Origin: Perkinsus chesapeaki
Taxonomy: Eukaryota; Perkinsozoa; Perkinsida; Perkinsidae
Reading direction: 5' to 3'
Length of the DNA stretch: 48,317 bases
Assembly (NCBI GenBank): GCA_013115145.1
Contig: JAAPAO010000242.1
Location: 1-48,317, forward strand
The position numbers and the translations under genes are program-made. The number at the start of each line of letters is the position of its first letter. Within the stretch, counting starts at the first letter, position 1. Positions 12,317 to 42,100 of this stretch are shown here, piece by piece. The notes under the pieces are model-generated. The model saw nothing but the letters and a program-made list of their open reading frames with translations. It did no database searches and was not told the DNA's origin.

Positions 12317-13282
12317 TCACTCAGCACCCTTACTCAACTTGATAGCTTCCACCTCACGTATCGGCTTGCGTGCTTGCGCCATCTTAAGATGCGTATAGCT
12401 GACGATACCGAATACTGTCAGGCCAACTCCAAGCAAGTTCGGCAAAGTGTACGGCTCGCCGAAGGCAATATATCCACTAGACAGGATAACGACCAATTTA
12501 GCATGGCCTAGTACGTTATACGATATCGGTGAAGTCTTTCCTATAACCAAGAAGATGGAAAGGTTCACCAGGAAGGCCATACCAGACGAAGCAATTACTA
12601 AACAGCCAGCATAGGTGTACCAATCGAACCGCATAAGTGTGGTAATGTCATCGGCCATCGGTACCACGAGCATGAGCATCAGTGCCGACAGCGGTGCTTG
12701 GTACAAGAGTAGCTGCTGGCTGCTACACTTGAGCTCATCCTGCTTAGTCTTGACCCAAATCTGATATAGACTTGTACTCAGTATACCAGCCACACCAAAG
12801 AAGATCCCGAGAGGGTTAACTTCTACGCTTGTGGCTGTAGCCAGGATAACTCCGAGGCATATCGGAACCAGGGCCAGGAGCTGGATGAGCGGAAGTGTTG
12901 TGGAGTAGCAGATGTACTGAATGACTACGATCACAGGAGTCGTCATGACTTTCATGAGCTGGTAGGTCCCAACCGTATTGTACTGCAATGAGAGATTATT
13001 GAAGACTACGAAGCCACAGAAAGCAACGCATAACGGGAGTACTGATCTCACAGAGATGGGCTTATAGGCGAACTGCCCACTCATGACACAGAGGCAAAGA
13101 CCGATGAATGTCACCAGAAAATGCATCACAGTCAGAGTGGTTGCCCAAGTAAAGCCGTTGTTATATGCTAGCTTGTTGATCCATATAATAGACGTTGAAG
13201 TTACGAAATTCAATGCCATGTACCCACAGATTGCAACGAACGAGGATGAGGCGACTTGTTCCTCCTTTACGACGCCGACCAT
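12317..13282 (-). CDS. SLC35E3-like nucleotide-sugar/triose-phosphate transporter family protein
   Basis: Intronless frame of 321 residues from the first ATG at 13282; the frame stays open upstream to 13354 only from a GTG. About ten membrane helices. It follows the SLC35E3 pattern closely: NLSLQYNTVGTYQLMKVMTT, LGVILATATSVEVNPLG, LSTSLYQIWVKTKQDEL, LLYQAPLSALML, NLSIFLVIGKTSPISYNVLG, GYIAFGEP. The family belongs to the drug/metabolite transporter superfamily and sits in Golgi, ER or plastid membranes; substrates of the E subfamily are mostly unknown. The lack of introns contrasts with its multi-exon neighbours. Confidence 0.85.
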   Translation of the reverse strand: MVGVVKEEQVASSSFVAICGYMALNFVTSTSIIWINKLAYNNGFTWATTLTVMHFLVTFIGLCLCVMSGQFAYKPISVRSVLPLCVAFCGFVVFNNLSLQYNTVGTYQLMKVMTTPVIVVIQYICYSTTLPLIQLLALVPICLGVILATATSVEVNPLGIFFGVAGILSTSLYQIWVKTKQDELKCSSQQLLLYQAPLSALMLMLVVPMADDITTLMRFDWYTYAGCLVIASSGMAFLVNLSIFLVIGKTSPISYNVLGHAKLVVILSSGYIAFGEPYTLPNLLGVGLTVFGIVSYTHLKMAQARKPIREVEAIKLSKGAE

Positions 13283-13415
13283 TGCAAGTAGGAAAAAGTC
13301 TAAACTTTTCTTTCCCTCAATTTCAAACTCAGCTATGCAAAAGTGGCCAATCACTCCTAGGAAACTGTTTTATTTTAATATAATACCGTCGTGATGATTA
13401 TGCCAATGGTTGATG

Positions 13416-23185: not shown

Positions 23186-26100
23186 ATGTCGACGACAAAT
23201 ACTCCTTCTACACCAACCTCGTCTACGTCTTCCTCATCGGGGAAGTTCACTTGGTGTATCGGCATCGACTTTGGCACCCGTACCTCTGTGGTAGCCTCGG
23301 CCCTACCTGGTAACAAGACAACTGCTACTATCGGAATTGACGTTAACGATGTCTCTAACCGATCAACTCCCAGCATCGTCGCTCTTTCTGATGGTTTACG
23401 CTTGACCGGTGAACACGCCATGAACCAAGTAGGTTGTCACATCCCTGCAGTGGTTCGTGGTCATCCGCATCCTTTCAGACCGGCGGATATATATCACATT
23501 TGGCGTCTGCCCTCGAGGATCCCGTTGCCTGCAGCAAACGGTTCGAGTGTGCTTGGGAGACCAAGCTCGGCCCTGTTAATCATGCCGACCGTGAGGGAAT
23601 CGAGCTCACTCCAACACAGGCCACAGCCATCTATCTCAAAGTCAGTTGGTCGTTTTTATTTCCTTGCCGCTTCAATACCATGCTTTCTCAGAACCTACGT
23701 TCCTACGCCTCTTGTGGTGATGCCACCGCCCCAGACGTCATGACCATCGCCGTTCCTGATGGTTACTCAGATGAGGCTATCGACAGACTTGTGAAGGCTG
23801 CTGCACTTGCCACCCCGAGTAAGCCGGCATGAACGGGAAGAAGGCGTAGAGCTACTTATTTTCTCAGACCAGCACCTTGTCGTAGTAGACCATAACTTGG
23901 CCATCGCCAACGCCTACAAGCATAAGGAGTCCACGGCGAAGCTCGAGGAGTCTGGGTAAGTCTTTGACTAGTCCAGATTAGCATAATATTTTCAGATTGG
24001 TTCTCTTCGTTGATGTTGGATACTCCCATGCGACTGCTACTCTAGTATCTTACCCCGAGGGTAAAATAATTGCCACTGAGACCAATAAGGATGTCGGAGT
24101 TTTTGAGTACATCCGCACTATATGCGACATGGTATGGCTCGCATACCCTAGCGTTCCGATTTTTCCGTTGCTAGGTCCGCGACCAGTATGGCGCAGTTAA
24201 GCTGTGCACTCGCCGAGGGCGCCGTTTACTAGCTGCTGCCGAGAAGGCTCTCAAGCAGGTTCGTACCGTCTGAGTGTTTCTTCTGTCATACGCTTGCCTC
24301 CTCAGCTGTCAATGCTAGCTGATACCACTCTCGAGTTGGAATGCTTCACAGAGGATGATGGAGATGTCCGTCTTAACCTCACTAGGTTGGTGCTATCCGC
24401 CACCGCAGAAGTAATTACCATTTTTCAGAAGCAAGTTCGAGGATGCCTCTAAGGAGATTACGGCAACAATCGAGGCTTTAGTCGCACGTGTAGCCAGCGT
24501 TGCTGGGGACTCCCTCGGCCACGTCGAATTGGTGGGCGGTGGCAGCCGTATTCCCTGTGTAAAGGAAGCTATTGCGAAGTACACGACAAAACGTTGAGGG
24601 GTGCAACTCGTTACAACTTCTATTAGGGCCGCTAATGTATCACCTGACCAACTAGGCTCTGGCTTGGATGGCAGTAGCTGTGTTGCTGTTGGGGCCGCGG
24701 CTGTGGCTGTGGAGGTTGCCAGAGGCGAAACGGTAGAGGGTATCAAGAAGGATGTCAAACTTACGGACGACATGGTGGACCCTAGTGAAAGGGAGCTTGA
24801 GGAGTGGATGCAGCAAGTTCACGACAAAGAGGTCAGACATCTTGTCATTTAGTGCGGTCGCACTGTGATATCATTAGACCGCTCGACGCCATGCTAAGAA
24901 CGCCTTTGAGACTTACATTTACACTGTCCGCGACTGGATGAACAACGACAAGCAGGGACTTCTTCCCAAGGACAAGGTAGGAATCGTGGGATAGCATATT
25001 GCAATCGAGATCCCGCAAAACAGGGAGTAACTGATCATGCCTCGCTACGGCCTCGAGACGCTGTCTCGCCGTCTGAAGGCCCACAAATTGTGGGGAACTC
25101 CTTCCGTAATGTCTACTGTTCAGATCACGCCCAGGCTCGAAAAGGATGAGCTTTGGTTCGAAGATGAGCAGTATGGAGAAGTGCCCGTATCAACTGAGCA
25201 ATATGAGGAGAAGCTTAAGGCCCTTAAGGAGTTCGTCGAGGAAGAGGGGTAGGCATAGTCGTGGGTTGTTTAGTATGATGCGTCCGATTCAGAGAGGCGT
25301 ACTTCAAGGCTCGTGAAGAGGAGCGACAGAAGGCGGAGAAGGAGCTGGAGGATAGAGCAGCTCAAGAGAACGGTGGGTTGTGATGCAGGTGGCGAAAGTT
25401 GCACCGCTTTGGCAGGCAAGGAGAAGGAAGACCACGACTTCCGCAAGATGCCCGCCAGTGAGAGGTTGAGGATGGCTGCTAAGAACAAGGAGGAGGGAAA
25501 CGTTGTGTTCAAGGCAGGCAATCTAACGGATGCCGTCAACCGGTACGTTCTTTCCTCGATGCTCCATAGTATCCCTCACGCATCAGGTATGCTCGCGCCA
25601 TGCAGCATCTAAATAAGGCTTTCGATATGAGCCCTGAGCAGCAAGCTGAGCACGACTCTATTGCTCTCTCATGTCATTTGAATACCGCACAGTGTTATAT
25701 CAAAATGGCTGGAAGTGAGAGGTAACTAATGAGGGGGGCACAGCTTGTTTACAGTGTATGCCCGCGTTAAGCAAGTAGTTGTTCGTTGCCATTGGATAAA
25801 ACAACTATTTGTGTACAAAGGATCGCCCAACTTTGTGCGTTATAATGCATGTTGCTGACGCCTGATTTACAACTACTGATTTCTTCCTTATCAGTGATAA
25901 ACAAACCGCTGAGCGACTCTGGGGGAAGGCAGTTTCCGCCGCGAAGGATGCTACTCAGATTGACCATGGCAGCGTCAAGGCGCAGTAAGAAATCCTAATA
26001 ATATTATACTCTCTATCACTGCACTTTAGTTACCGTTTGGCATTAGCGCAGGATCATTTGGGCCAGTTCGATGAGGGTTTAACCTCAGTCAAGCGTGCCC

Positions 26101-26213
26101 GACACCTGGCGCCCGAGGACAAGGAGGTTGTTAGACTCGAGAGCAGAATACAAACACAAATTGACAGACAGAACGCCAAGGCCAAGAAAATGTATAAAAA
26201 AATGTTCGCATAA
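23186..26213 (+). CDS. Hsp110-type ATPase domain fused to a TPR carboxylate-clamp domain, 699 residues
   Basis: Sixteen exons: 23186-23428, 23479-23640, 23692-23818, 23868-23955, 23996-24131, 24175-24258, 24306-24385, 24429-24592, 24656-24831, 24878-24976, 25124-25248, 25293-25372, 25416-25542, 25587-25721, 25895-25984, 26030-26213 (2100 nt, one frame). The nucleotide-binding domain has GIDFGT (26-31), VLFVDVGYSHAT (Hsp110-like second phosphate loop, not the DLGGGT of Hsp70) and VELVGGGSRIPCVKEAI. It runs straight into the helical lid (HDKETARRHAKNAFETYIYT). The beta-sandwich substrate domain, normally about 110+ residues, is absent; about 30 residues take its place on one continuous exon. 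After a charged helix come three TPRs (about 535-690) with clamp residues: K and N in NKEEGN, N in HLNTAQCY, K and R in KAHYR. Such clamps bind the EEVD ends of Hsp70/Hsp90. Confidence 0.85.
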
Positions 26214-26413: not shown

Positions 26414-29400
26414 CTACGAGAGGCCAAAACCAGCCTTGGCATAAATAGCCGTTAAGAGCTTTTTCCGCAACTTCTCCACATTCCCTCCGTAGTCGGGGAG
26501 TTTGAGGAGGTTCACGCAAGTGCTGGCAGTTGGCAAACGGTCAGGATCATCGACCCTTGCTATCGCAAATAAGGGAGAAAGTGTTTTGAAGCCAAGCAGA
26601 GGCGGTCTGGGATTGCTAGTCACAAATTGGAGCAATGCGTCTCGGTCGGCGTCGGTGAAGAGGTCTCTGACGACGTGCCAGAACGCGCGGATATTTGGAT
26701 GCTCTGCGAAGTAACCATTAGAGTACTCAGTATGCCGTTGAAGATCATCGACATCGAATCCGCGCCTTTCTTCTCCTGATATCAGCATGTTCAGTTCTTC
26801 TGGACAAAACAACTGAAGGAGATATAAACTGAGAATCAGAAACTCTTCTTTGGGAAGACCCTACCTGAAGCCATTGCACTGGAATGATATCACCAATGCC
26901 CTCAACGAATGCCTTAGTCTGCTGCTCAATTTGAGTGCACGTTTTGAACTTCGTCATTAGCAGTAGATACAGCATTCTGTTGTCAGCGGTTACGGGTATC
27001 TTGCAAGACAGCACAGTGAGGGCTGGCGACAGACGGAGGCGCCTGAACTACCTTGCTTCCACCAGGGATCAATTCCACATCCCGATTTCCTGCTGTAACA
27101 GTGAAAGTTAAGGAGAGGGCATCCACATCTTCCGGTGAGCAATGCCTTAAGTAAAGCAGACTTCGGCATACCTGGACCGATGCGCTAGCAACTTGTCCTC
27201 CGAACAAAACGCTGGTCTACCTCCTTATCGATGGTAGCAACTTCGTCAATGGAAAACTGTAATCCCAGTATACGATTAAGAAAAACAATAGAGAATCGTG
27301 TATCAACCAGAATCTAAGAAAACTGAGTGATCGCCTTCACACGAGGCATTTAACCCACCAATTCATAAACCGCCTTCCCAACCGCGCGACCAAGATTTCG
27401 GATCTGATTCAGCTCTTCCACTGTCGGAGTGGCATTGGGGATCGGATAAACTCCTATAGGAGGCAGTCTATCGACTACAGCTTCAATAATAGGCCGAACA
27501 TACCGCCGTTCTCGTCCGATGTGAAGAACTTGCCGAAGGCCTCTTTCGTCCAGAGGTTGAGGAACTCTTTGAACAGGCCGCCGCCGTCTATGCCGGGTTC
27601 CATTGCACCTGAAGAAAATATTTGATTGATATACAAGCGGATCTTACCAGTCTCATCAATCCATTCTACTCGCCATCGGGCATGACTCGATCCACTCGAG
27701 GACATGTTTTCCATCATCTTCATACCGTCTTTCAGAAGCAAATCAGGATCTGAAAACCAAGAAGCCCATAAAAGAAACAAAAAAAGGGAGGCGGTCTGCT
27801 GACCCCTATGGACTGTCTGCAGCGTTTCGTTCCGTCTCGAGCGCATCATGAACATCAAATCAGCGTGCCGTCGCTCGCCGCCACTGTGGTCGTTGAGGAG
27901 AACTGTATGGAATAGAGCGACTCGGTCCTTGAAAGCTATCTGAAGCACAAAAGATTATACGTGCGTTGAATAACAAAGGCAAACCCACCGAGTGAGGAAG
28001 TTCGGCAAGAACTGCACTGAGCTGACGCTGTTCGCCCTCGTGGGATCGACTACGGCCGTTAGATTTCGGAGTAAAGAAGTAGTGTACCGCAGGCTCCTGT
28101 TGCTGCGATCTGGCATCACAAGTCGAACAGCGTCGTGTGTCATCCACAACTCTCACTCTGACTGAGCGTTTTGCGTAGCCGAATCACCCTCCACATCGTT
28201 ATCTTCATCCATGTAATCTACGTCGTTCATTTCCTCGTCACCACCACCCCCTTCAGCGGCCAAGTCCGCCAATCGGACGTCTGCAGCTGCCCTCAAAAGG
28301 GGCCGAGAGGAACGAACCACCCAGTAGTCAGCCGAATCCAGACCTAGAGTCGATCTGAACAGTCAAGTCAATCACCAAAGAATCAGGCGAAGATTCGTTA
28401 CCTCCGTCCGTGAAGAGAGCGGCAGATTCTGCAAACCCCACTGACAAGTGTTTGCAGCTGCTGGGTGCAACCGGGCTGGGCCGAAGCTGACAACAACTTG
28501 AAGGCCACGAGGTTTAGTACGGGAATAGCTGATCGAAGTATCTGACATCACTTGGTCCCGGTAGTGTAGCGGCGAAGGGGCCACTGGACCCGGGCCAGGG
28601 GTGAGGCAAGCGAGACGGTACGTCAGGGTCCACGGGATTGCGGTCTTTCCTCTTCATATCATCAGCGTCCATGACTTGCAGGGCTGTCCCATAAAGAGTC
28701 GCCGAGGCGCTCAATCCTACATAAACAAGCTCGTCGCCCGACAGAACCTAGTAGCGATAGCAATGTACGAAAAACCTTCTACTTGATGAGGTAAGGTCTA
28801 CCTTATCTGCACAGGACTGCGCAAGGGACTCTTTTGCATTATCAGTTGCCGAAGGACAGACTAAGTACGGCTCCACAAAACGTCTCACAATAACCTCGTG
28901 AATCCGCGGGATCGACGCCAGTAACTAACGTAAGTATTGTTCCGGTAATGGTCTGACGGAGGTATCCTACAACTCTTGTGTCGTTCTCGAGAGCAATGGA
29001 GTTCTGCGTGCCGAAGTAAAGGCCAAGGAGGGCCCAGATCGCCTCGTCGTCACCGTGCCGAGCCAAGGCCTTCATAACGTGTGGCGACAACAGTACATCG
29101 TTCGAGTTGCCGCGCGATCGAGATCCCCACCAGACGGCGCGAACCACAGCACTAGATATTCCAGTAGTGGCCGAATCCTCAATCCATCGGCACAGATTCT
29201 GAGATAGATGCTGCGCTGTATCATCAGAAGGTTCCGGGAAATAACGAGAGAGCTCGGCTTCGACGTCGGGATACACACTTTCAAGGAAATGCACAGCCGC
29301 TGTGGTAATAGCCTGAAAAGAGCAGGTTTGCAGAGAGCTAGACGGTGATGACCAACCTGGAACTCGGGCTCATCGCGGTTGGCTGTCATTCCTTGCGTGA

Positions 29401-36427: not shown

Positions 36428-36775
36428 CTCGGGGTAGTCGTTCTCATCGTCCTCCGAATCGTTGATGTGTTCTCGTGTGAACTAGAATAATAATGCTTGT
36501 CTTTGATTTATTATCTATTGCATGCCTGCTTTGTTAACGTCCCTTGCCCTTTGTCCGGGCATCTGTTTTCACTGTATTCTATTGCTACTATCATAAAGTT
36601 GTGGCCCTAGTCGAGGAGCTGCATAGCAATCCCAACCCTGGCCGGTATAAATGCCTAATAATGAAGCAATCTGCATATATCTCTAGCTTTGAGTTGGCGA
36701 TAAATATTGAGGAAACAGCGGAAAGCGACATCGTCATTGATGATGTTCCCCGAAGGTTCTTTTGCCCTATCAACC
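36428..36775. other. intergenic region
   Basis: Separates the 357-residue orphan and the Nudix pair. A frame over 36544-36846 is open but overlaps the Nudix start and has no recognisable feature. Confidence 0.45.
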
Positions 36776-37711
36776 ATGCCAACGACTACAGTCTCTCAGC
36801 TAGCTTCTCTACTAGCACAGCAAAAACCAGTGCTCAGTGCCGCTAGGATGGCAGTAAAGTCGAGGGCCATGGTTGCGTGTATTGTTAGGGCAGCTCCTCG
36901 CTCACCCGGTACAGCAGAGATGCTGCTCATACGCCGAGCTGTCCGAGAGGGAGATCCTTGGTCCGGCCAAACCGCGTTCCCGGGAGGCCGCTGCGAGCCT
37001 AAGGATTACGGCAGCGATTTGGCTACGGCGATTAGGGAGGCTAACGAGGAAATAGGCGTTGATCTGAGTGATGAAAGACACTTTAAATTTCTGGGCCGGA
37101 TTAACGATATAGAGCTGTATCGCTCGGGAAGGGTCCATATGGTAGTAGGGTGCATGGTCTTCCATCAGCTCGCCCCACAACCGATTCGCGTCGACCCGCT
37201 TGAAGTGGCGGCTTGTGGTTGGGTGCCTCTGTCGGTGGTTGGACAGGCCACCAGTGGAGACCTTCGTATAGCGTATTGGTCTGTACCCAAGAACTGGGGA
37301 TTGCCCTCTTACCTCCATAACTATCTCAGTCTCATAGGCCTCAATGAGGTCGCTCTAGCAACGCTTCCGATAGACCTCCAGGATGCTGTTAAGGCTAATC
37401 CTGACGTGAAGGTGGATGATCTTGACCTTTGGGGCCTCACACTGCAGTTTGCTATGTTGATAACACGCGACCCTGGTGATCCTCTCGTCGTCTATAGGAA
37501 CCTGCCCGTATGCGGACTGCGAGTGCCTCATAAGTATCGATGGCCTGTCCATGATCTTGGGCTCGCTTTGTATCACACTATTTGGGACAAGGCCAGGTTG
37601 CGCCACGGTTCGGCTGTTCATGTGTCATATTTCTGTTTTTTTCATTGCTTACTGGCTGCGGTTCTCACGGCCGTTGGAGTGGCCACCGCTCGTCTTCGCA
37701 GTCGGCTGTAA
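36776..37711 (+). CDS. Nudix hydrolase, CoA-pyrophosphatase-like, with C-terminal membrane tail (copy 1), 311 residues
   Basis: Intronless. I chose ATG 36776 because the protein then matches the next gene from its first residues (SQLASLLAQQKPVLSAARMA). The Nudix box lies in WSGQTAFPGGRCEPKD followed by ATAIREANEEIGVDL, with the metal-binding RE..EE present. The AFPGG lead-in and the tail of the domain are like NUDT7/NUDT8-type CoA diphosphatases, which cleave CoA or acyl-CoA. After the domain come about 120 unrecognised residues and a hydrophobic end (FFHCLLAAVLTAVGVATA) with basic RLRSRL, which could be a tail anchor. Followed by a paralogue after 123 bp. Confidence 0.82.
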   Translation: MPTTTVSQLASLLAQQKPVLSAARMAVKSRAMVACIVRAAPRSPGTAEMLLIRRAVREGDPWSGQTAFPGGRCEPKDYGSDLATAIREANEEIGVDLSDERHFKFLGRINDIELYRSGRVHMVVGCMVFHQLAPQPIRVDPLEVAACGWVPLSVVGQATSGDLRIAYWSVPKNWGLPSYLHNYLSLIGLNEVALATLPIDLQDAVKANPDVKVDDLDLWGLTLQFAMLITRDPGDPLVVYRNLPVCGLRVPHKYRWPVHDLGLALYHTIWDKARLRHGSAVHVSYFCFFHCLLAAVLTAVGVATARLRSRL

Positions 37712-39151: not shown

Positions 39152-42100
39152 ATGTGCGACTTCGATTCTTGTCTAGCCAAGGTCGGCCTCGGCACGCATC
39201 CACAGTTGGGGGGTGGACAGCATGTGGACCTGAAAGCCGTTGGAAGGAGGAAGCGGACCCGCCGAGAGCTCCGGGCACCGCTAGAAGTCAACGACCAAGA
39301 TGGACTTGAAGTTTTCGGAGAAGAGGGGCAATTGTGGTCTGAGAGCATCGGTGCCCTGCCAAGAACTGAGACGCATTGTCTTACGGGTCGATTTGAGTGT
39401 CTGTACACCGAGCACGTGACGCAAAAACGGAAGCGCTTCCACGAGGGATTTATAGTTCTTCAGCAGGAAGCTGGAGTTAGCCTATTTAGTATGGATTCCG
39501 ACGATGCCATTGACAGTATTATATGGAGTTATACTCTTCGGCGAGACTGGAATAAGGCAAAGGCTGCCGCAGCTACGCTGGAGATGCTGCTCCAGCGGCA
39601 TATCGTTAGGGTGGAGTTCGGCACCGGGATGGGTGGAACTGTTCATACCACTGGCAGCTCAGGCATCAACGCGCGTGCGCGAGGGAGCGTGAATGTCGGG
39701 ATTGTCAGCGCGGATATGTTCCGCTCAGCGGCGGCCATCGAGAGCTCTGCATTCGGTGGGATCGGCCGAGCGTCACTCGATTCTGGGAGTGGCCGCTCGT
39801 TTGGCCCAGTCGAGGACGGGGAGTTCGAGGCAATCTTGCGGAGGGCCAAGGCGGAGGCCATGCCTCAACAGGAGGATGATCGTGCACCTCTTCTGCTTCA
39901 ACCCAGTAAGGTAGCACCTCGGGCATTTCCCCTGACAAATGCGGCTCAAGAGGCTACCGAAAAGAAGAGGGCCATTCCCGAGTTTCCCGCTTATTGTCCT
40001 CCAAGCACGCCATTCGACCTTCTTGACTTGGACTTTGCTGTGCCGTCCAAGGATGCTTTGGTCCCAGCGATTTCGTCAAGCTGTACTCCGTCTCCTATCT
40101 CGTCGCTACACAGTTACGCCCTTCATTACCTTGACGTTTTCTATAAGGCCATTTACTCTTCTGTTAAGGAATTGTCTGTGGGCGTGTCGCGTCGTGCAGC
40201 AGACGGCACCGTGGCTGGGCTTAAGAGATGTCCGCTAAGTTCAACGTGTAAGTTGAAGATCACCGATAAGGGCGATGCCAGGCTCTACTTTCCAGAACAC
40301 TCGGTGGCAGCCACTAGGAAGAAACGCGGCGGCGGAGCACGAGTGTTTCTAAAGTCCTCTTCTGTCCGTGAGAAAGCTAGTCATGTTGATACTCCTGATG
40401 TGTTCGTCCTCCTTGTGAAGGGAACGTGGGCTGTCTATGCTACGGCGTGGCGGGGTATGAATCCTCAAGGCCTTCTCCAAGTAAAGCCCTTAACTGAGGC
40501 GACGAAAAAGCTCCAAGAAGGCCTCGTGGTCGGAAGCACTTTATCCTGTGAGCGCCTGCACTCTATTGCAGGCATCAGCCAACGGCTGCAATACATAGAG
40601 ACCCTACGGTCATTGTTGGGTGCTAAGAAGGAGGATACTAGCGACAGCGAGAACGACTTCTTCAACGCCGGGCTGGCTTCTCGAGCTCACCTTGATCCCA
40701 CAGGCAGCTGTTGTACGAGTCTCTGTCTCCTTGGAGGTCAGGGCAGCCATCGGCTCCTCGGTCATTCTCTTAGCCTTCCTGGAGCCGTAGACCTCGACGC
40801 CTGCATGACGGCGACTACGGAGAAGTTTCCTGGGCTTAATTCAGAGCAAGTAGCGGTCCTTGAAAGGGTTAAGGATTGGTTCTCTACCGCAACTGCTGAG
40901 CCGTTACTCGTTGTTCAAGGAGTCTTTGGGTCTGGAAAGACCACGGTATTGGCCGCTATAGTGGCCCTGCTATACGAGATCCTAGTTGAGTCTCTCGGAC
41001 CAGTTGTTCCCGTGGCCCATAGGAGAGTGGGCTTGCTTGCCCTAACAAATGTAGCCGTTGACAATGTACTGTTAAAGCTCCAGTCGAGGGGCTTTGAAGA
41101 CTTTGTACGCTTGGGTGTCTATGACCGTATTGCCGCCAGCATCAGAGACCGATTTTATGCGAGGACTCAAAGTCGAGCTCAGAAGGAAGGCCCGCAGGGG
41201 TTGTCGGTCCTAGAGTGGAAGGCCCGATCGGTGGTCGCATCGACGCTGGCAGCTGCAGCGGATATCGCTCCTGGGGTAGGGTTGAGCTGCTGAGTGGATA
41301 CTGGTAAGTGTCATCATTTAGGTGCCATGCCCCTTCGTGGTGATTGACGAGTGCGGTCAGGTGACTGAGCCATCTTTGATGTTGCCGCTGATGCGCAGCT
41401 TGCGGCCTGTTCGAATCATTATGTTTGGCGATCCAAAGCAGCTTCCTCCTCCACCAGATGAATGCCCCATAAAAGCGCCTTCGGGTTCCGCATCGATTCT
41501 TCAATTAGTCACCGAGAGGCAGTGTCTGCAGCGTGGTGAATGTGCCCCATGTGTCGTTCCAGGCACGCCAGTCGCCGAGGGAGAGCTCTAATTCGACAGC
41601 AGCACCTGAGGACACAGTACAGATGCCACCCAGATATCGCTGCCATATGCTCTACTCTGTTCTATAACTGCCAAGTCTGCCAGCATTGTGCCAGGCGCTA
41701 CAGCTCAGTATGTGTCAGGTGTTAACTGAGTATAGAGCCCCGGCAACTGGTGCTCCCCTTCCTGGCATGTCTGCTGTGATTGCCTTTCAGCATAGGAGCA
41801 GCTCCGCACCCTTGAGGAAGGGTAAGGTGCTTGAGCCCTGCAGACACTTTCCTTGGGGCTCAGGTGACTCATTATATAATCCGGAAGAGGCCGATATTAT
41901 AGCCGGTTTGGTTCAGCGTCTTACCGGTCGTACTAGAGATATTTGCGTGATATGCATGTATAGGGCCATGGTGCAGGAAATCAAGGATCGGGTCTGTTTC
42001 GCTCCGTTTCGTTCTTAGCGTTTCTCCTAGCTCCTCGATGTTCAAATTCAGATAACACAACCCATCACCGTTGCCACTGTGGACAGTTTCCAGGGCTCTG

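Follow-up and report, generated by a model that had tools for sequence, protein, structure and literature searches.

An Hsp110-type ATPase fold and lid joined to an immunophilin-type TPR domain in Perkinsus chesapeaki and other protists

In a contig of Perkinsus chesapeaki (JAAPAO010000242.1; the whole 48,317 nt analysed are called the window), a gene of 16 exons with GT..AG introns was identified at 23186-26213 on the + strand, encoding a product of 704 aa. The protein consists of an Hsp110/Hsp70-type ATPase fold, a short connector, an Hsp110-type helical lid and a TPR domain, in this order. Protein comparisons indicate that this fusion is an old family common to several protist groups and not a local oddity. 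From its residue patterns and a predicted structure, we give an even chance to the reading that the protein is a client-free, non-hydrolysing Hsp110-type exchange factor, which would be recruited to the EEVD tail of Hsp90 (or Hsp70) by its immunophilin-type TPR domain.

Gene model, domain order and family

The 16 joined exons gave a single open frame from the ATG at 23186 to the stop codon ending at 26213. By the frame criterion alone, 40 open combinations were possible at two doubtful introns; the introns 24579-24626 (48 nt) and 24977-25123 were accepted because the alignment with the P. marinus protein P0002 supports both. In this alignment 704 of 704 residues were paired at 82.2% identity, and the sole gaps were 6 extra residues in P0002. 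An earlier sequence-only reading of this DNA had also closed sixteen exons in one frame, which agrees with the GT..AG chain and the full-length alignment, but it had placed the start of one exon at 24656, where the P0002 alignment puts the start of exon 9 at 24627. The boundary 24592|24656, yielding 699 aa, was rejected in favour of 24578|24627, which gives the 704 aa that pair fully with P0002. The NCBI model FOL47_004248 (P0001) contains the same fusion and is 100% identical across the 659 residues common to both models; 45 residues are missing from it where the ATPase fold ends, and it carries 22 residues that the P0002 alignment places in an intron. These two differences would speak for an artefact, either a wrong exon chain joining two genes or a pseudogene. 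We regard this as scarcely credible and already contradicted: P0002 matches all 704 residues, the Hematodinium transcript P0005 and the transcript-style record P0009 each hold both halves in one frame, and a convergent gene with a HECT ubiquitin-ligase domain (26414-26860, - strand; 147.6 bits) lies directly downstream, at a distance of about 200 bases. The ATPase and TPR parts are one gene, as had been proposed.

The Pfam HSP70 match covered only profile positions 2-383 of 599, corresponding to the ATPase domain. TPR matches were found at the C-terminus, all under Pfam's own cut-offs, and the protein had no Pfam match to a peptidyl-prolyl isomerase domain. A Ser/Thr-rich N-terminus and the start of the ATPase fold with its phosphate-1 motif GIDFGT lie on exon 1 (23186..23428, aa 1-81); the fold continues through exons 2 (23479..23640), 3 (23692..23818), 4 (23868..23955), 5 (23996..24131), 6 (24175..24258), 7 (24306..24385) and 8 (24429..24578, its donor shifted from 24592). 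On exon 9 (24627..24831) the ATPase fold ends, the connector that replaces the beta-sandwich follows, and the lid begins. The lid extends over exons 10 (24878..24976) and 11 (25124..25248) to exon 12 (25293..25372), which holds the final lid helix and a linker. The linker and TPR1 are on exon 13 (25416..25542), TPR1-TPR2 on exon 14 (25587..25721), TPR3 on exon 15 (25895..25984), and the remainder of TPR3, a Cyp40/FKBP-like C-terminal helix ending KKMYKKMFA and the stop codon on exon 16 (26030..26213). All exons are on the + strand.

No beta-sandwich was found between the ATPase fold and the lid by Pfam, by spacing or in the predicted structure. The GAA of the ATPase fold and the lid Asn are 52 residues apart in the P. 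chesapeaki protein and 39-154 residues apart in family rows (the top values, 145-154, belonging to P0013-P0016, which carry an insert), against 161-166 in 10 control rows of Hsp70/BiP/DnaK type and 196-281 in 10 of Hsp110 type. In family rows the columns of the interdomain linker DLLLLD were empty. In the predicted P. marinus structure the ATPase fold ends at about residue 395 and the lid helix begins at 413, so that the connector of about 30 residues given by the sequence-only reading was a fair estimate. A hidden beta-sandwich exon was rejected: both sides of the ATPase-lid join lie on one exon, 24627-24831, which leaves no room for a concealed domain. With this and the 52-residue spacing, the loss of the beta-sandwich first read from the DNA holds. 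On the predicted structure, the ATPase fold and lid are most likely held in a rigid, Sse1-like arrangement.

Protein searches, which were limited by shared words and give the lineage list as a minimum spread, recovered the same domain order in P. marinus, in P. olseni, whose records are partial or disturbed, in Amoebophrya sp. A25, in metagenome proteins and in ten named Phytophthora species. It was also found in a green-algal protein with a cut C-terminus (P0232), whose record is labelled Mesvir1, which we take to be Mesostigma viride. The order also occurs in P0009 and in P0005, whose prefix GEMP01 is tied to Hematodinium in an excerpt of PMC6642578. Where the sequence-only reading had a single protein, there is a family, present among alveolates in Perkinsus species, Amoebophrya and Hematodinium, and also beyond alveolates. 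Its members are annotated in databases as 'Hsp70, putative' or 'hypothetical'. No member from animals or yeast was among the word-limited search results, and to our knowledge the animal and yeast systems behind chaperone textbooks do not have the family. In the open-access literature we found no publication describing an ATPase-lid-TPR fusion and no paper on the C-terminal helix motif. A reverse fusion was also observed: P0134 (768 aa, ena) carries N-terminal TPR repeats ahead of what appears to be a complete canonical Hsp70.

Nucleotide site, lid face and TPR clamp

Residues of the nucleotide site were counted relative to cytosolic Hsp70, using only family rows with a letter at each position; P0003, a disturbed gene model, was left out of these counts and of the tree described below. 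The results showed that Lys71 was kept in none of 23 rows (in P. chesapeaki M79, at 23420-23422 in exon 1, occupies the Hsc70 Lys71 position), Glu175 in none of 28, Thr204 in 1 of 28, the second Gly of LGG in 1 of 31 and Asp366 in none of 34. Asp10 was kept in all rows (22/22), as was the GG..R nucleotide motif (34/34; adenosine-contact motif GGGSRIP in exon 8), and Asp199 was Asp or Glu in 28 of 28. Among nine Hsp110 control rows, Lys71 was present in 8, and the LGG Gly and Asp366 in 9 each. The loss of the LGG-type loop and the changed second phosphate motif were seen as originally described, the second Gly being gone and VDVGYSHAT standing in exon 5 where DLGGGTFD is expected. ATP hydrolysis by family proteins appears very unlikely because Lys71, Glu175, Thr204, Asp366 and the LGG Gly are lost or nearly so, and the weak or absent ATP turnover suggested earlier is probable on these catalytic-residue losses. 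Nucleotide binding appears possible, though not assured. Sse1 is functional with ATP that is bound but not hydrolysed, as stated in an excerpt of PMC4753570.

On the lid, columns N437 and E440 (P0002 numbering) were invariant in alignment A2, from which P0210, P0212, P0214 and P0228 were left out (P0001 was excluded from both A1 and A2). They correspond to N433 and E436 in P. chesapeaki (exon 10), and these equivalents of Sse1 N572 and E575 were kept in 34 of 34 family rows. According to an excerpt of PMC11479587, Sse1 carrying both N572Y and E575A retains 20% of its Hsp70 binding and 5% of its exchange. The pair is also found in canonical Hsp70, and BiP and DnaK have Asn/Asp. In canonical Hsp70 the lid is latched to the beta-sandwich; the retention of the pair in a family with no beta-sandwich would favour an Hsp70-facing role.

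In the TPR domain, the carboxylate clamp was complete in the P. chesapeaki protein, with K551 and N555 in exon 13, N601 in exon 14, K642 in exon 15 and R646 in exon 16. Across 34 family rows the first Lys was Lys in 31 and Arg in 3, the second position, Asn in 22, was Thr in 12, and the remaining three were invariant. Compared with solved structures, the P. chesapeaki TPR matched Cyp40 (58.7 bits), followed by an engineered TPR array (46.8, over short stretches), FKBP51 (44), AtFKBP42 (40.5), a Plasmodium PPIase (40) and FKBP52 (39-36); CHIP reached 25 bits and Hop was absent among the 31 matches listed. For the P0009 TPR, the best single-domain match was Cyp40 (80.4 bits), with FKBP52 at 66.6 and a Hop chain at 33.8; SPAG1 scored 87.9 as a whole-protein sum over three stretches. 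The C-terminal helix KKMYKKMFA aligned with the terminal YAKMFA of Cyp40. By these alignments, the TPR is closest over the whole domain to the Cyp40/large FKBP type.

The cytosolic Hsp70 of the genome ends in TVEEVD and its Hsp90 in SKMEEVD. The sequence-only reading proposed that the TPR could grip the EEVD tail of an Hsp70 while the ATPase-lid part acts on that same molecule as exchange factor. The intact clamp and the EEVD end of the organism's own Hsp70 agree with this self-tethering, as does the similar strength with which FKBP51 binds both tails, with IC50 values of 16 uM for the Hsp90 tail peptide and 26 uM for the Hsp70 tail peptide (excerpt of PMC6212638). The same excerpt gives 40 uM for the tail of human Hsp105. 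Against it stand the whole-domain relatives of the TPR, which are Hsp90-type immunophilins, and the low score of CHIP and the absence of Hop among the listed matches. The clamp part of the claim was therefore upheld and its Hsp70-specific part was not; we consider self-tethering unlikely. Since Cyp40 and the large FKBPs are Hsp90 co-chaperones, docking on the same Hsp70 appears no more likely than docking on Hsp90.

The SPAG1 score bears on another explanation, in which the ATPase-lid part would leave Hsp70 alone and hold another protein while the TPR brings Hsp90 or Hsp70, for instance as an assembly factor for flagellar dynein. SPAG1, the whole-protein top score for the P0009 TPR, is a TPR protein of dynein assembly; many lineages with a family protein are flagellated, and the deep decay of the ATP site also fits such a pseudo-chaperone adaptor. 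However, the SPAG1 score sums three stretches where that of Cyp40 comes from one domain, and the lid positions that match the Sse1 exchange face do not vary, which makes the adaptor less likely still than self-tethering.

Ancestry, ordinary Hsp110 and other genes

A maximum-likelihood tree of 47 ATPase domains (26 family, 10 Hsp110-type, 10 Hsp70-type and 1 ungrouped) recovered the family as one clade (support 100/99), Hsp110 as one clade (95/87) and Hsp70 as one clade (100/99). P0224, P0225, P0004, P0207, P0215, P0220, P0230 and P0233, with fewer than 260 ATPase-domain residues each, were omitted, and several family branches were long (flagged by the program). Because the Hsp70 side together with P0179 was split off at 97/91, the ATPase sequences place the family as a separate clade sister to Hsp110 if the root lies among Hsp70/DnaK. 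The whole-family profile scored 350 bits on Sse1 compared to 275 on the best Hsp70 chain. The family lid profile reached 47-66 bits on nine Hsp110 rows, compared to 42 on BiP1, 40 on P0137, 34 on BiP2, 26 on cytosolic Hsp70 and at most 17 among DnaK rows. The tenth Hsp110 row (H110c638) gave -5.6, its incomplete model stopping before the lid exons. Tree, profiles and predicted arrangement thus agree with the initial assignment of the ATPase fold and lid to the Hsp110 type.

An ordinary Hsp110 was sought in the P. chesapeaki assembly with three query proteins, for which 12, 11 and 15 candidates were scored. The queries turned up Hsp70/BiP-type genes, an endoplasmic reticulum (ER)-type gene on contig C362 and an intron-rich gene on C135, and one of them also matched a single exon of the fusion gene (E 0.16). 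The C362 gene is Hsp110/Grp170-like with a signal-like N-terminus; a further gene, on C145, is HSPA13-like by our own reading. Only one clear ordinary Hsp110 was found in the assembly, on contig C638, although short exons and the incomplete assembly leave absence unproven. C638 looks foreign because of its low G+C (28.6% and 31.4% in its halves, compared to 45.5-52.6% in eleven other stretches) and the AAT-biased codon use of its Hsp110 gene (AAT 36, AAC 1); the contig, including the canonical Hsp110 gene, is probably a contaminant of the assembly. That the fusion protein stands in for an ordinary cytosolic Hsp110 in Perkinsus is suggestive only. The wider proposal would make the family a third Hsp110/Hsp70 branch of alveolates, stramenopiles and a green alga that lost client binding, took up Hsp90-anchored exchange and in Perkinsus may replace the cytosolic Hsp110; we offer it tentatively and on balance find it doubtful.

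Searches for the Fes1 and BAG families were uninformative, giving no match in the P. chesapeaki genome nor in any of 14 control genomes. In a viral fold library only viral Hsp70 homologues matched, which has no bearing on the fusion. Elsewhere in the window we observed a 713-aa open frame at 39152-41290 (+) with ZGRF1-like N-terminal and AAA_11 helicase matches, a NUDIX-domain frame at 36704-37708 (+) and a triose-phosphate-transporter-type frame at 12320-13369 (-).

Proposed action and known systems

In the Hsp90-anchored exchange-factor reading set out at the start, the ATPase fold would bind nucleotide without useful hydrolysis, and the rigid, Sse1-like ATPase-lid face would pull ADP from Hsp70. 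The TPR would park on the EEVD tail of Hsp90 first, or of Hsp70, and would thereby bring nucleotide exchange and client release to the point of hand-over from Hsp70 to Hsp90. This transfer is usually pictured with Hop and separate nucleotide exchange factors; if the reading is true, the fusion is a ready-made Hsp70-Hsp90 link that couples exchange to client transfer. The need of Hsp110 for a client-binding domain of its own has so far been argued from yeast mutants, and a natural family without that domain, which keeps the ATPase fold, the lid and the exchange-face residues, offers a direct test case.

The ATPase fold and helical lid of the family resemble those of Hsp110/Sse1 in the family and lid profiles, in the tree and in the predicted arrangement, and the Asn and Glu of the exchange face are retained. 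The family differs in having neither beta-sandwich nor acidic insert, in its changed Lys71, Asp366 and LGG loop, in its C-terminal TPR and in forming a separate clade. Compared with canonical Hsp70 it lacks the catalytic Lys71, Glu175 and Thr204 (kept in 1/28), the DLLLLD linker and the beta domain. HSPA13 (STCH) is a truncated Hsp70 relative. It shares with Ssz1 and the family an Hsp70-type ATPase fold from whose substrate domain a part is gone (excerpt of PMC10687569). Ssz1, however, keeps the beta domain and has lost the lid, the reverse of the family, and neither Ssz1 nor HSPA13 has a TPR.

Cyp40, FKBP51 and FKBP52 share with the family a carboxylate-clamp domain that has three TPRs and a C-terminal helix and aligns along its full length up to the last residues; their effector is a peptidyl-prolyl isomerase, whereas that of the family is an Hsp110-like ATPase fold with lid. 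Hip (ST13) lacks the ATPase fold. The man-made Hsp70-Hip fusion 4j8f, among the top Foldseek hits, does combine a TPR with an Hsp70-type ATPase domain in one chain, and this combination would suit a Hip-like brake, which would either slow the Hsp70 cycle by binding the ATPase domain of Hsp70 or compete with true exchange factors. We judge such a brake quite improbable: over the whole chain 4j8f cannot be superposed (rmsd 18-22), so its arrangement differs, and the ancestry of the family is that of an exchange factor. The cooperation of an Hsp110 with an immunophilin TPR, which the Hsp90-anchored exchange factor would embody, has a parallel in human Hsp105, whose C-terminus binds FKBP51 and AIP (excerpt of PMC6212638); there the contact is between two proteins, whereas the family has both modules in one chain.
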